The position numbers and the translations under genes are program-made. From positions 1 to 47,775 of the forward strand of contig JAJXTV010000029.1 of assembly GCA_021783515.1 (NCBI GenBank): a stretch of DNA of 47,775 nucleotides. Direction: 5' to 3'. Source of the stretch: Nitrospirota bacterium (GTDB lineage Bacteria; Nitrospirota; Thermodesulfovibrionia; Thermodesulfovibrionales; UBA6898). Below, one piece after another: positions 5,189-46,571 of this stretch (its first letter is position 1; every line of letters begins with the position of its first letter). The notes beneath the pieces were generated by a model. That model was not told where the DNA came from and ran no database searches. It saw only the letters and a program-made list of their open reading frames with translations.

Positions 5189-5469
5189 GCCTCTTTCCGC
5201 AAGGGGCGCGGGACTGTCTTATTAGATGGAGAGCGCTGCATGATCAGGCCTTTATTATCCCAGATTGTCCGCATTTTCCGCGACAATTTTTCGATCCTAT
5301 GACACGCCATCGTATTTGATGCTGCGAGAGGTCCTATCCTTTTTGGCCATCTCTATCTCCTTACCGTCTCTGAGCTTCCGACAATTCACCTCGACGGTGC
5401 AAAAAATATCACCACGGACGCTCTCTCCGCCGGGTTGCACCGTGAGGGCCCACCATTCACTGTCTATCC

Positions 5470-15802: not shown

Positions 15803-15861
15803 CCTTTTCAGGTCGTGATTTCCTTCCTTGACTCTCCCGTTGACATACATATCGTCACGGT

Positions 15862-16031
15862 GACGGGGAGAGCGGCCCGAAAATACTTTCGTAGCGATTC
15901 CTTAGCGCATCGGAAGCCACATCCAAAGACCCTTATCGGGACATGCCTTTTTGTGAAGGCCTGTATTCCCGCCGCCATGCTCTGTTAAATCCTATCGCAT
16001 CAGAAAGGATGTGAGGGACGCTCTCCCCGCC
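15862..16031 (+). mobile_element. MITE-like repeat, copy 1
   Basis: This 170-bp sequence matches the reverse complement of 20064-20232 at roughly 85% by eye. The ends are inverted: GACGGGGAGAGCGGCCC on the left and the complement of GGCGGGGAGAGCGTCCC on the right (15 of 17 match), with weaker inverted similarity continuing inward (CTTTC...GCGAT). There is no transposase inside. It sits just upstream of bioF. Target duplications are not obvious. Confidence 0.8.
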
Positions 16032-16090
16032 CCATACAACGATAGTGTGAAGTCTCTCAACGGAGGTTGCCCCTGTGGTAATATGTAGCC

Positions 16091-17236
16091 ATGTTCGAAG
16101 AGGAGCTGAGAGAACTCGAAGAAAACGGCCTTCTCCGCCGGCTGCTCCCGAGGAATTCTCCCCAGGGGCCGGTGATCACCGTCGGCGGGAAGGAATATCT
16201 CAATTTTGCCTCGAATGATTATCTTGGGCTCGCGGGGCGCCAGGAGCTGCTGCGGGCGGCCGGCGCGGCGGGGAGGAAGTTCGGCTTCGGCGCCGGCGCG
16301 TCGAGGCTGCTGGCAGGCGGCAGCCCCCTTCATGAAGAACTGGAAAAGGCGGTTGCCGCTTTCAAAATGACCGACGCGGCGCTGCTCTTCAACTCCGGAT
16401 ATACCGCCAACACCGCCTCCATTGCGGCGCTGGCGGCAGAGGGCAGCACGATCTTCAGCGATGAGCTGAACCATGCGAGCATCATCGACGGCTGCAGGCT
16501 GAGCCGGGCGAGGGTCGTCATCTACCGCCACCGGGACGCCGGGCATCTCGAAGATCTCATGAGGCGGGAGCGGACGGACAGGAAGGTAGTGGTGACGGAT
16601 TCTGTCTTCAGCATGGACGGCGACATCGCACCGCTGCCGGAGATATATGCGCTCTGCCGCAGGCACGATGCGGTCCTCTATCTCGACGAGGCCCATGCGA
16701 CCGGCGTGCTCGGAGGAGGGAGGGGGGCCCTTGCCCATTTTGGACTGGCCCCCCATCCGCGGACGATCCAGATGGGGACGTTTTCGAAGGCGCTTGGTTC
16801 TTTCGGAGCTTTCGTTGCGGGAGACCGCGACGTGATCGGCTGGCTGACGAATACGGCGAGGGGCTTTATGTTCTCCACGGCGCTTCCCGCACCCGTTGCC
16901 GCCGCGTCGCTCGCCTCGCTTTCGCTGCTCGGGAAAAGGCCCGGGCTGGTGCGGAGGCTTTGGGCGAACACGCAAAAGACAGCAGAAGGGCTCAGGGAGA
17001 TCGGCTATGATCCGGGGCCCGCTGAAACGCCGATCCTGACGATCAGAAGACGCAGCCAGGGCGATGTCCTTACCCTCTCGGCTTTTTTGTGGGGACAGGG
17101 GATCTATGCTCCGGCGATCAGGCCGCCGACGGTGAGGGAGCCGAGGATAAGGCTCACCCTTACGGCGGCGCATACGGCTGGTCAGATACGCGCGCTCATA
17201 AAGGCGATGGGGGAATACGGCCGCGAAGCGAGGTGA
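16091..17236 (+). CDS. bioF: 8-amino-7-oxononanoate synthase (alpha-oxoamine synthase)
   Basis: This 381-residue PLP enzyme condenses pimeloyl thioester with L-alanine in biotin synthesis. Visible motifs are NFASNDYLGLAG near residue 38, the PLP-stacking and Asp region LYLDEAHATGVLGGGRG, and the Schiff-base lysine in TFSKALGSFG. The length fits BioF. Glycine C-acetyltransferase (Kbl) and other oxoamine synthases share these motifs, and no other bio gene is adjacent, so the assignment to BioF is likely but not certain. The start ATG at 16091 has GGAGG about 25 bases upstream, which is farther than usual. Confidence 0.82.
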   Translation: MFEEELRELEENGLLRRLLPRNSPQGPVITVGGKEYLNFASNDYLGLAGRQELLRAAGAAGRKFGFGAGASRLLAGGSPLHEELEKAVAAFKMTDAALLFNSGYTANTASIAALAAEGSTIFSDELNHASIIDGCRLSRARVVIYRHRDAGHLEDLMRRERTDRKVVVTDSVFSMDGDIAPLPEIYALCRRHDAVLYLDEAHATGVLGGGRGALAHFGLAPHPRTIQMGTFSKALGSFGAFVAGDRDVIGWLTNTARGFMFSTALPAPVAAASLASLSLLGKRPGLVRRLWANTQKTAEGLREIGYDPGPAETPILTIRRRSQGDVLTLSAFLWGQGIYAPAIRPPTVREPRIRLTLTAAHTAGQIRALIKAMGEYGREAR

Positions 17237-17272
17237 GGACAGCGTGAGCCCCGATGCAGCAGGGGACCGTTG

Positions 17273-17288
17273 CAAAAAGCCCTTCGGG
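17273..17288 (-). terminator. Weak terminator after the SufR-like gene
   Basis: On the minus strand GCCC-GAAG-GGGC-type pairing is followed by TTTTT, about 48 bp past the stop at 17336. The stem is short. Bases 17277-17301 also resemble one end of the MITE-like element (19 of 25). Confidence 0.35.
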
Positions 17289-17335
17289 CCGCACTTCCCG
17301 CTTTCGTGGATATTTAAATTTATGCGGCCGGAGTG

Positions 17336-17968
17336 TCAGTTCTTCGGGATGAGGTAGACGCAGGACTGTGCGCCTTCCGCTACGGACTGTTCCCTCGATA
17401 TGTTCCGGTGGATGAGCTCGCGGTACATCTGGAGTTCGTATTTGCAGGCGTCGTGAAATTCCCTGGCCACTTTGTTGATCGGGCAGTGGAACTGCTTCAG
17501 GTGGTAGTGGGCCGAGTTCTTGCTGATCTCCACGAGATGACCGTCCGCCTCCAGCATGTCTTTCAGTGCGTTCAGTGTGGCCTCGATTCCGGCCTTTCCC
17601 GCAAGCGCCTCTTTCCGTGAATTGACCAGCCTCTCCCGCCGCCAGTTGAAGATCTTGTCTATCTTTTCATCGCCTTCGTGCTCCCTGATATCCCTCAGGA
17701 GGTCGACGGCGAATTTATCGTAGGCCTTGGGGAAAAGGTCGTTTGCGGCGTCGGTCAGCATATAGATGAACCCGGGCCTGCCGATGCCCCGTCTCCTCGA
17801 GACATAGGAGACGATGCCTTTCTTCTCGAGGGCCAGCAGATGCTGCCGAATCCCCATCGGTGTGATCTCGATCACCTTGCTCAGGTCCTCGATCGACATC
17901 CCGCCGTTCTTTTTGAGAAGGAGGATGATATTTTTCCTCGTCGAATTCTCGTCGATGAATATATCCAT
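17336..17968 (-). CDS. SufR-like iron-sulfur-sensing transcription regulator
   Basis: This 210-residue regulator has an N-terminal winged helix-turn-helix (STRKNIILLLKKNGGMSIED, then ITPMGIRQHLLALEKKGIV and RRGIGRPGFIYMLT). The C-terminal half carries cysteines in the order C-x12-C-x27-C (HCPINKVA, ACKYEL, SCVYLI). As I recall, this is the spacing of the [4Fe-4S] ligands in SufR, the repressor of suf cluster-assembly genes. So it probably senses Fe-S status. It is divergent from a ferritin-like/fumarase operon rather than sufBCD. The start could also be the ATG at 17986; neither has a clear Shine-Dalgarno. Confidence 0.8.
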   Translation of the reverse strand: MDIFIDENSTRKNIILLLKKNGGMSIEDLSKVIEITPMGIRQHLLALEKKGIVSYVSRRRGIGRPGFIYMLTDAANDLFPKAYDKFAVDLLRDIREHEGDEKIDKIFNWRRERLVNSRKEALAGKAGIEATLNALKDMLEADGHLVEISKNSAHYHLKQFHCPINKVAREFHDACKYELQMYRELIHRNISREQSVAEGAQSCVYLIPKN

Positions 17969-18077
17969 ACTGCAAGAAAATAGCATAAAAAAAAGTTTTT
18001 GTAAATAAAAAAGTTAATAAACTGTGCAAAGAATGATGCTATATCGTTTCCTGCCTATATATGATAATATTGCTTGG

Positions 18078-18102
18078 ATTGAAGGGCCGAATCCCTTACA
18101 AT
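18078..18102 (+). promoter_or_regulatory. Inverted repeat in the leader of the ferritin-fumarase operon
   Basis: ATTGAAGGG-CCGAAT-CCCTTACAAT is a near-perfect inverted repeat with one extra base on one arm. It lies after an AT-rich TGATAAT region and before the Shine-Dalgarno of the ferritin-like gene, in the intergenic region shared with the divergent SufR-like gene. It is a candidate operator for that regulator, by position only. Confidence 0.4.
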
Positions 18103-18126
18103 ATTCAAAAAAAAAGGAGATGGCGT

Positions 18127-18621
18127 ATGGTTACAGGCAAGGAAGATCTCTTACGGTCCCTTATCGAGGCTTTCCTTATGGAAAAAGGGACGCACGAGTT
18201 TTACGAGATGGCCGCGACAAAGGCGGTCAGCGAGGACGCCAGAAACACCTTCAGGGAACTTACCGGCTGGGAAGAGAAGCATATGGAGTATATCCAGTTT
18301 CTCTACCTTTCGATCCAGGACGACCGGGACCTGGAGCGCTTCGAGGCGTTCAAGAATAAGGCCGATGCGCCGGTCGTCGAGGGCGGCATTCCGGTTGCGG
18401 ACCTCGAAGCGAAGGTCGAAGAATCGGTTTTCCTGGACGACATGGGCGCGCTCATCCTGGCGCTCGAGATAGAGGGCAAGGCCTACAACCTTTACCGGAA
18501 CCTCTCCCAAAAGGCCGCTGACCAGAATGCGCGGGTCGTCTTCAAGGAGATGATGGATATGGAACTGAGCCATATCGATTATCTCAAGAAGTTGAGGAAC
18601 AATCTTGCTGAGACTTCGTGA
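18127..18621 (+). CDS. Ferritin-like (rubrerythrin-type) diiron protein
   Basis: The 164-residue, mainly helical protein has two E...ExxH-type repeats: MEKGTHEFYEMAA and GWEEKHMEY in the first half, and LEIEGKAYNLYRN and MDMELSHIDYL in the second. These give the Glu/His ligands of a carboxylate-bridged diiron site in a four-helix bundle. There is no C-terminal rubredoxin domain, so it is an erythrin-like form. Such proteins handle peroxide or iron. AAAGGAGA lies 6 bases before the ATG at 18127. Its 3' end overlaps the fumarase alpha gene by 17 bases. Confidence 0.82.
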   Translation: MVTGKEDLLRSLIEAFLMEKGTHEFYEMAATKAVSEDARNTFRELTGWEEKHMEYIQFLYLSIQDDRDLERFEAFKNKADAPVVEGGIPVADLEAKVEESVFLDDMGALILALEIEGKAYNLYRNLSQKAADQNARVVFKEMMDMELSHIDYLKKLRNNLAETS

Positions 18622-19450
18622 CGGCGTCGTAGAGCTGTACAAGAAGGTGGCCACCTCCCTTCCGCCGGACGTCGAGGAGGCGCTCCGCAGCGCGCGTACG
18701 GCAGAGGAGGAAGGTTCCGCCGCCGCGTCTTCGCTTTCGGTTATGCTCGAAAACGTCCGCATGGCGAGGGAGAACGTGAAGCCGATCTGCCAGGACACCG
18801 GTGTGCCCGTATTTTTTGTGAAGGTCCCCGCCGGGCTGAGCCAGCTTGACCTCCGGGAGACGATTTTCGATGCGACCCGGATCGCCACCGCGAAGGTGCC
18901 GCTCAGGCCGAATGCGGTAGATTCGGTGACCGAGAAGAACTCGGGTGACAATACCGGCGCGGGCTTCCCGATCGTTTATATGGAGGAGACACGAAGCGGG
19001 ACCCTCTCGATTGACCTGATGCTGAAGGGCGGCGGGTGCGAAAATATCGGCCAGCTTTATAAGCTTCCGATCGAGGAACTCGGCGCACAGAGGGACCTGG
19101 ACGGCGTGCGGCGGTGCGTTCTCGATGCCATCCAGAAGGCGCAGGGCAGGGGCTGCCCTCCCTATGTCGTCGGCGTCGGCATCGGCGCGGCGAAAGACCA
19201 GGTGACGAGGCTGGCGAAAGACCAGCTTATGCGCAAACTCACCGACGTCAGCCCGAACGAAGCCCTCGCCGCACTCGAAAAAAGGCTACTCGCCGAGATC
19301 AACGCGCTCGGTATCGGGCCCCAGGGGCTGGGCGGGAAGACGACCGCCCTCGGGGTGAAGATAGGGGTCAACCACCGCCATCCCGCCTCCTACTTTGTGG
19401 ACGTATCGGTGAGCTGTTGGGCCCACAGAAGGGGGAGGCTGATCTGGTGA
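18605..19450 (+). CDS. fumA: Fumarate hydratase class I, alpha subunit
   Basis: This 281-residue protein corresponds to the N-terminal half of class I fumarase/tartrate dehydratase, which hydrates fumarate to malate using a [4Fe-4S] cluster. Cluster-type cysteines are seen in PICQDTGVPVFF, GGGCENIGQ and SVSCWAHRR, spread as in the family. The start is TTG at 18605, inside the previous gene, with GAGGAA upstream. No ATG or GTG is available near the expected N-terminus. It overlaps the beta-subunit start by 4 bases. The split alpha/beta form is common in anaerobes. L(+)-tartrate dehydratase is an alternative. The symbol follows common annotation only. Confidence 0.87.
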   Translation: MLRLRDGVVELYKKVATSLPPDVEEALRSARTAEEEGSAAASSLSVMLENVRMARENVKPICQDTGVPVFFVKVPAGLSQLDLRETIFDATRIATAKVPLRPNAVDSVTEKNSGDNTGAGFPIVYMEETRSGTLSIDLMLKGGGCENIGQLYKLPIEELGAQRDLDGVRRCVLDAIQKAQGRGCPPYVVGVGIGAAKDQVTRLAKDQLMRKLTDVSPNEALAALEKRLLAEINALGIGPQGLGGKTTALGVKIGVNHRHPASYFVDVSVSCWAHRRGRLIW

Positions 19451-20034
19451 AACCGATCGTGCTCACTCTGCCCCTTTCGGAGTCCGATGCGCGGGGGCTG
19501 AAGGCCGGAGACGCCGTTTCCCTGGACGGCCTGCTCGTTACGGGGCGGGACAGGGTCCATAAGTATCTGTCCGAAAGGCCGCGGAAGGGAGATGTCCCGT
19601 TCGATCTGGCCGGGACCGTCCTGTACCATTGCGGACCCGTGGTGGAGAAGACCGAAGAGGGGTTCAGGGTCATTGCGGCCGGGCCGACGACGAGCATGCG
19701 CGTCGAGATGTACGAGGCGTCGGTCGTCCGCGAATATCGCATAAGAGGGGTCATGGGGAAGGGCGGCATGGGAGAGGCGACACGTGCCGCGTTGAGAGAA
19801 GAAGGATGTGTGTATCTCCATACCACGGGCGGGGCTGCGGTGTATCTGGCGGGCAGGATCAAAAAGGCGGCGGACGTCTGGATGCTCGAGGAGTTCGGGC
19901 CGACCGAGGCGATGTGGCTTTTCGAGGTGGAGGGGTTTCCGGCAATCGTGACGATGGACTCGCATGGAAACGACATTCATGCCGAGGTGGAGGCGGCGTC
20001 CTTTCAGAGATTTTCGGAACTTATCAATAAATAG
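19447..20034 (+). CDS. fumB: Fumarate hydratase class I, beta subunit
   Basis: This 195-residue protein is the C-terminal half of class I fumarase. Motifs are LDGLLVTGRDRVHKYL, LYHCGPVV, AAGPTTSMRVEMYE, and GVMGKGGMG near residue 105, which contribute to substrate binding with the alpha subunit. The start is the GTG in GTGA shared with the alpha stop, with GGAGGC 9 bases upstream; the longer frame beginning at 19114 is a shadow of the alpha gene. A MITE-like copy begins 29 bp past the stop, so nothing else seems to follow in the operon. Confidence 0.87.
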   Translation: MKPIVLTLPLSESDARGLKAGDAVSLDGLLVTGRDRVHKYLSERPRKGDVPFDLAGTVLYHCGPVVEKTEEGFRVIAAGPTTSMRVEMYEASVVREYRIRGVMGKGGMGEATRAALREEGCVYLHTTGGAAVYLAGRIKKAADVWMLEEFGPTEAMWLFEVEGFPAIVTMDSHGNDIHAEVEAASFQRFSELINK

Positions 20035-20063
20035 TGAATTAAGGAACCCTGTCGTTTCATGCC

Positions 20064-20232
20064 GGCGGGGAGAGCGTCCCTCAAATCTTTCTGATGCGAT
20101 AGGATTTGACAGAGCATGGCGTCGAGAATAGAGGACTTCGCGAAGAGTGATGTCCCGATCAGGGCCTTCGGACGGGGCTTCCGATGCGCTGAGGAATCGC
20201 TACGAAAGGCTTTTCGGGCCACACTCCCCGCC
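20064..20232 (-). mobile_element. MITE-like repeat, copy 2 (inverted)
   Basis: This is the second copy of the ~170-bp element, in opposite orientation to the copy at 15862. Strictly shared blocks include CGTAGCGATTCCT, AGCGCATCGGAAGCC, ATCGGGACAT, GCCATGCTCTGT and AAATCCTATCGCATCAGAAA. The terminal inverted repeats are GGCGGGGAG... at both ends. The rest of the gap to 20404 has no recognisable gene. Confidence 0.8.
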
Positions 20233-20404
20233 TGTGAGGCGCTTTGTATGCAGCGGGAGAGTGAACAGAGAGAAGCGGATAGTAATCGGCAAACTGTCTG
20301 CCGCCTGTTTGCGATTGCCGGTTCTCCGGTCCGGGCTCTAGTCCAAGGCTATCGATTCACCATTCACTTCTTGCTACGCACTGCTTTCTTTCGGAGGTGA
20401 TGTC

Positions 20405-37911: not shown

Positions 37912-37996
37912 GCGAGAGTGGCGGAACTGGCAGACGCGCTGGACTTAGGATCCAGTGGAGAAATCCGTAGGGGTTCAACTCCCCTCTCTCGCACCA
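37912..37996 (+). tRNA. tRNA-Leu (anticodon UAG)
   Basis: This is an 85-nt class II tRNA with acceptor GCGAGAG/CTCTCGC, anticodon loop CTTAGGA (UAG, codon CUA), variable arm TGGAGAAATCCGT, T-loop TTCAACT and encoded CCA. Its last 37 bases are repeated at 46535-46571. Confidence 0.96.
37960..37996 (+). repeat. Attachment site repeat, left copy (inside tRNA-Leu)
   Basis: A 37-bp perfect direct repeat, from GAAATCCGTAGG to CTCTCGCACCA, covering the variable arm, T-arm and 3' end of tRNA-Leu. Confidence 0.93.
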
Positions 37997-46534: not shown

Positions 46535-46571
46535 GAAATCCGTAGGGGTTCAACTCCCCTCTCTCGCACCA
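46535..46571 (+). repeat. Attachment site repeat, right copy
   Basis: Perfect 37-bp copy of the tRNA-Leu 3' end. It begins 1 base past the stop codon of the metallophosphoesterase gene. It has no tRNA 5' half, so it is a remnant of the original target. Confidence 0.93.

Follow-up and report, generated by a model that had tools for sequence, protein, structure and literature searches.

The window analyzed here, a stretch of 47,775 nucleotides from a Nitrospirota genome (contig JAJXTV010000029.1), contains two copies of a short element of ~215 bp each, which form an inverted pair. Copy 1 (15832-16047, +) is located ~43 nt upstream of bioF and has the left end CTCTCCCGTTGACATA and the right end CAACGATAGTG. 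Copy 2 (20047-20261, -) lies 12 nt past the stop codon of the fumarase beta gene and is flanked, in element orientation, by TTCA and TTCC. The bioF-like gene, an open reading frame at 16091-17236 (+), belongs to the host sequence between the copies and is syntenic in the sister genome G002, where the element is missing.

When all copies were aligned in one orientation, similarity extended ~30 nt past the earlier left boundary and 15 nt past the right one; the element thus measures ~215 bp and reaches from CTCTCCCGTTGCATA to TATGCAACGATAGGG. The initial annotation of this locus had recognized inverted repeats correctly, but the GGCGGGGAGAGCG arms that it took for the element ends proved to be an inner (subterminal) stem, and the true ends are inverted repeats of the type CYCTNNCGTTGCATA. 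In agreement with the initial annotation, neither copy contains a transposase, and the element appears to be non-coding, judging from the length of its apical part, which differs from copy to copy.

The interior of the element is a hairpin of ~175 nt. With a covariance model (R2) that was partly built from these same two copies, the hairpin cores scored 147.8 bits (E = 7e-31) in copy 1 (15859-16035, +; P1 arms at ~15861-15874 and 16018-16031) and 143.3 bits (E = 7e-30) in copy 2 (20060-20235, -). A decayed partial third copy directly follows bioF (17251-17333, -; 67% over 83 bases, consensus positions 3-81, E = 6e-6) and has no covariance-model match. The partial end previously suspected at 17277-17301 is indeed element sequence, and it is a part of this decayed copy. 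A weak match at 5416-5448 (+; 82% over consensus positions 184-216, E = 0.002) is a possible right-end fragment.

An insertion site free of the element was found for copy 1, whose flanking sequence is present without the element in the genomes G002 and G003. At the site of copy 2 the relatives contain other sequence instead, hence there is no clean unoccupied site. At the orthologous place in G003 (L189), a short stretch in the same intergenic position resembles the window element, which suggests an old or repeated insertion at this site.

A MITE family and its putative transposase

Searches of the host genome assembly (48 contigs, 98.7% complete) returned at least 44 matches for copy 1 and at least 51 for the consensus, which merged into at least 48 places, 40 of them long. 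As the two window copies are 87% identical over the searched length and occupy two of these places, their resemblance is not due to chance, and the inverted pair described initially is real. The end motif had 49 matches in the host genome, compared to seven for a reversed control pattern, and some of these matches were short elements (41-59 bp) that lacked internal sequence and had duplications. When the bases on either side of 40 copies were compared, the permutation expectation was exceeded in the 4-bp register alone (~4/2000). Exact 4-bp duplications include TTAA, TAAA, and TCAA, and the duplications of both window copies are imperfect. One further copy (G000 C25:4526-4733) is flanked on either side by the same 10 bp, TCAGTCATGC, a match longer than the usual duplication.

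Two other types of miniature inverted-repeat transposable elements (MITEs) carry the same ends as the window element. The second type, which contains GGGCAGACATGCTGAAAAAC, is represented by L215 (G000 C35:26742-26955), L214, and L236; related sequence occupies the site of copy 1 in G001 and that of copy 2 in G004. The third type, of ~237 bp (L231, L241, and L252 in G002 and G001), is abundant in G002 and found at many contig edges.

Transposases with matching ends, which the initial annotation had proposed to look for, were detected in other genomes of the order, where they belong to the IS1380 family, but not in the host genome. A decayed transposase in G002 (remnant L273) matches the IS1380 model NF033539 at 3e-9 and ends in CCCTAACGTTGCAT, and its relatives (83-88% identity), from three further genomes of the order, have long open frames of 441-477 amino acids and CCCTATCGTTGCATAAAA-type ends. 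Altogether, the IS1380-type elements L275-L277 and the remnant L273, all from other genomes of the order only, have the ends of the MITE. The sole autonomous element seen end to end (L276) measures 1521 bp, and its flanks show no duplication. An IS1380 element of G001 was rejected as partner, as its ends differ. Within the host genome, no transposase was found with the IS1380 model, and no matching ends were found near two other DDE_Tnp_1 proteins. Since the host genome yielded no IS1380 transposase, mobilization there is something that we infer from the shared ends: the window element would have been moved in trans by an IS1380-family transposase, which the host genome has presumably lost.

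Taken together, the terminal inverted repeats, the 4-bp duplication statistics, the presence of at least 48 copies, the empty site in relatives, and the transposases with the same ends elsewhere identify the window element as a member of a MITE family, in agreement with its initial description as MITE-like. The ends and targets also resemble those of piggyBac, for which TTAA-like variants and CCCT/CACT ends have been reported and to which IS1380 has served as the prokaryotic outgroup (PMC10813416); the likeness comprises the TTAA-like duplications, including TAAA and TCAA, and the CCCT/CACT ends. The division of contents is reversed between the partners: IS1380 elements carry a transposase and no hairpin (none was found in the autonomous IS1380-type elements by a covariance-model scan), whereas the window element carries the hairpin and no transposase.

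Bacterial repeats of a similar kind, such as ERIC, NEMIS, and RUP, have been reviewed (PMC2229807). The enterobacterial ERIC/IRU and the Correia/NEMIS repeats of Neisseria are likewise MITE-like intergenic repeats of 100-200 bp, and they form long stem-loops when transcribed (PMC2229807). Compared by description only, ERIC and NEMIS use TA, whereas the window element has IS1380-type ends and a TTAA-like target, and its hairpin differs from theirs in being phylum-wide with strong covariation in the stem. RUP of pneumococcus, also a MITE, shares its ends with an insertion sequence and is presumed to be mobilized in trans (PMC2229807), but its partner is IS630 and not IS1380. Literature searches in an open-access library found no MITE linked to IS1380 in Nitrospirota.

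A covarying and strand-biased hairpin

The hairpin begins with the outer stem P1, which a tandem GA/GA internal loop separates from stem P2 (AAAGCCUUUC/GAAAGGCUUU); beyond a small loop follow stem P3 (GCGAU/AUCGC) and an apical region with P4. Throughout the order, P2 and P3 are conserved in sequence and in their loops, as is the GA/GA loop. A covariance model detected the hairpin in 51 of 176 genomes of the order, and a refined model in 77 of 396 Nitrospirota genomes and in 50 of 170 genera; this range takes in further families of the class as well as one that lies outside it. Many Nitrospirota genomes have multiple copies, with copy numbers that are lower bounds in many of these genomes. Intergenic regions or their vicinity contain most of the copies, which often lie 10-40 nt downstream of a stop codon, and about a third to half of the copies overlap a gene call of the context analysis, which relied on simple open reading frames. 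No sense-strand bias of the neighboring genes was observed, and the gene on the 3' side was antisense in 50 of 76 cases; a function as a sense-strand 3' UTR was unsupported by this gene-orientation test.

RNAalifold applied to the host-genome copies alone revealed almost no shared structure, and P1 does not covary among these recent copies. The plain decay of a MITE, which the RNAalifold result had first suggested, was reversed as an explanation by copies from other genera. Copies in G013, which represents another genus, match chiefly the element interior, and their outer stem varies from copy to copy yet remains complementary (GGACATGGCGGCA/TGCCGCCATGTCC in one copy versus GACGGCGGCAGGC/GTCTGCCGCCGTC in another). 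Insertion into pre-existing palindromes, considered for this variable outer stem, was set aside as GGAC/GTCC recurs at the stem base. In 14 copies outside the host genome, left P1 arms were much more complementary to the right arm of the same copy than to those of other copies (0 of 20,000 permutations). In a plain MAFFT alignment, which was not fitted to the structure, 17 of 36 pairs were changed on both sides, compared to 7.4 in shuffled data. An order-wide model alignment of 41 sequences, which leans toward the structure, contained 31 covarying pairs out of 36 (score 0.54 versus 0.18). The predicted stem thus shows the compensatory changes that characterize structured RNA families. Rfam families are also structured RNAs with covariation, but an Rfam search of the window at the gathering score gave no match at the MITE copies, and the search of seven loci at E-values up to 5 produced only two weak matches, both outside the elements.

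Base pairing is also asymmetric between the strands. On the modeled strand of the remote copies, G.U pairs outnumbered A.C pairs by 47 to 8. An independently built reverse-complement model gave the same bias (46 to 11), so that it is not a fitting artefact. The modeled strand outscored the other one in 24 of 28 copies (Wilcoxon test; p = 4e-5). Wobble pairs in excess on one strand only are a further feature of structured RNAs. The bias favors RNA as the acting molecule, even though a single DNA strand would behave alike.

Conservation is uneven along the element. In the host genome, the stems and the core are 0.82-0.88 identical to the consensus, compared to 0.68 for the ends and the apical part. 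The hairpin is intact in G013 and in most of the remote copies, whose transposon ends are no better matched than by chance. The better conservation of the core, together with a hairpin that outlasts the ends in G013 and remote copies, suggests from sequence comparison that selection may act on the hairpin beyond transposition. Two genomes that belong to one genus have retained one copy in the same place, about as similar between them as its flanks are.

Explanations for the spread and maintenance of the hairpin

MITEs are usually regarded as inert transposon derivatives. Our preferred reading, to which we assign a probability of roughly 0.8, is that of a structured-RNA MITE family that is mobilized in trans by IS1380-type transposases and whose hairpin is itself under constraint. 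An IS1380-family transposase would recognize the CYCTNNCGTTGCATA ends in trans and insert the element at TTAA-like 4-bp targets, with the ~175-nt hairpin as cargo between the transposon ends. Across the Nitrospirota, one strand of the hairpin would be maintained in single-stranded form, most likely as RNA. As a guess, read-through transcripts might fold into the hairpin and then be processed or stabilized, as proposed for ERIC and NEMIS, and such transcripts might make insertions near the 3' ends of genes tolerable. Only tentatively do we extend this reading to a phylum-wide, uncatalogued mobile RNA, a strand-specific hairpin of ~175 nt that has its own function in the cell, hijacks IS1380-type ends, and outlasts their decay. 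The interior of this MITE is in any case a strongly covarying, strand-biased hairpin that occurs in 77 of the 396 sampled Nitrospirota genomes and is absent from Rfam in the stretches scanned; if it is a functional RNA, the family offers a clear case in which to test how structured RNAs acquire mobility and whether their hosts become dependent on them.

IS1380-type transposition may have spread all copies, with clear ends and a duplication in only ~7 copies outside the host genome (two copies of L294, as well as L295, L297, L312, and L313, and L298 by inspection). The hairpin could instead belong to a family of structured RNAs that disperses by a route of its own and gained IS1380-type ends in some lineages, including the host, without using them as its general vehicle. 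Most copies outside the host genome fit such a history, as they have a complete hairpin and no recognizable ends or duplication, but ends with duplications also occur in the distant lineages G130, G041, and G023, and a variant end, CCCGGAAAATGCAT, occurs with TTAA in two further lineages; we consider this route unlikely.

Our estimate is lower for an ordinary MITE, whose hairpin would be the symmetry of long terminal repeats with no role beyond transposition and whose covariation would stem from arm-to-arm copying (quasi-palindrome correction). Palindromic MITEs are frequent (PMC2229807), and the missing P1 covariation in recent copies is compatible with this explanation. However, arm copying is not expected to produce a G.U excess on one strand, nor does the explanation agree with the order-wide preservation of P2, P3, their loops, and the GA/GA loop, or with old copies in which the hairpin outlives recognizable ends.

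Less probable again is an element that works as a hairpin of single-stranded DNA, comparable to attC- or REP-like substrates. The covariation and the one-strand tolerance of G.T pairs would be just as compatible with a single strand of DNA, but inverted ends with a 4-bp duplication are of the DDE-transposase type and not a signature of single-strand transposition. Mainly from the strand bias, we infer that the hairpin of the structured-RNA MITE family acts as RNA rather than as single-stranded DNA.

A composite or invertible unit, in which the pair mobilizes or flips the enclosed 4 kb as the initial annotation had envisaged, has the inverted orientation and 87% identity of the copies in its favor and is nevertheless highly improbable, as the copies sit at many unrelated sites, the pair is bordered on the outside by TTGA and TGAA, which form no composite duplication, and G002, which lacks both copies, has the genes around both sites in the same order and orientation as the window. 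With these genes collinear and no flip seen in G002, the pair has neither inverted nor carried the block there.

Two other repeats were observed in the window. Three repeats of ~217 nt at the contig edge (1-517) have a spacing of 150 nt and are 87-96% identical. A tRNA gene (37912-37993) has a perfect 37-bp direct repeat of its 3' end 8.6 kb downstream (46535-46571), an arrangement that usually marks an integrated island.
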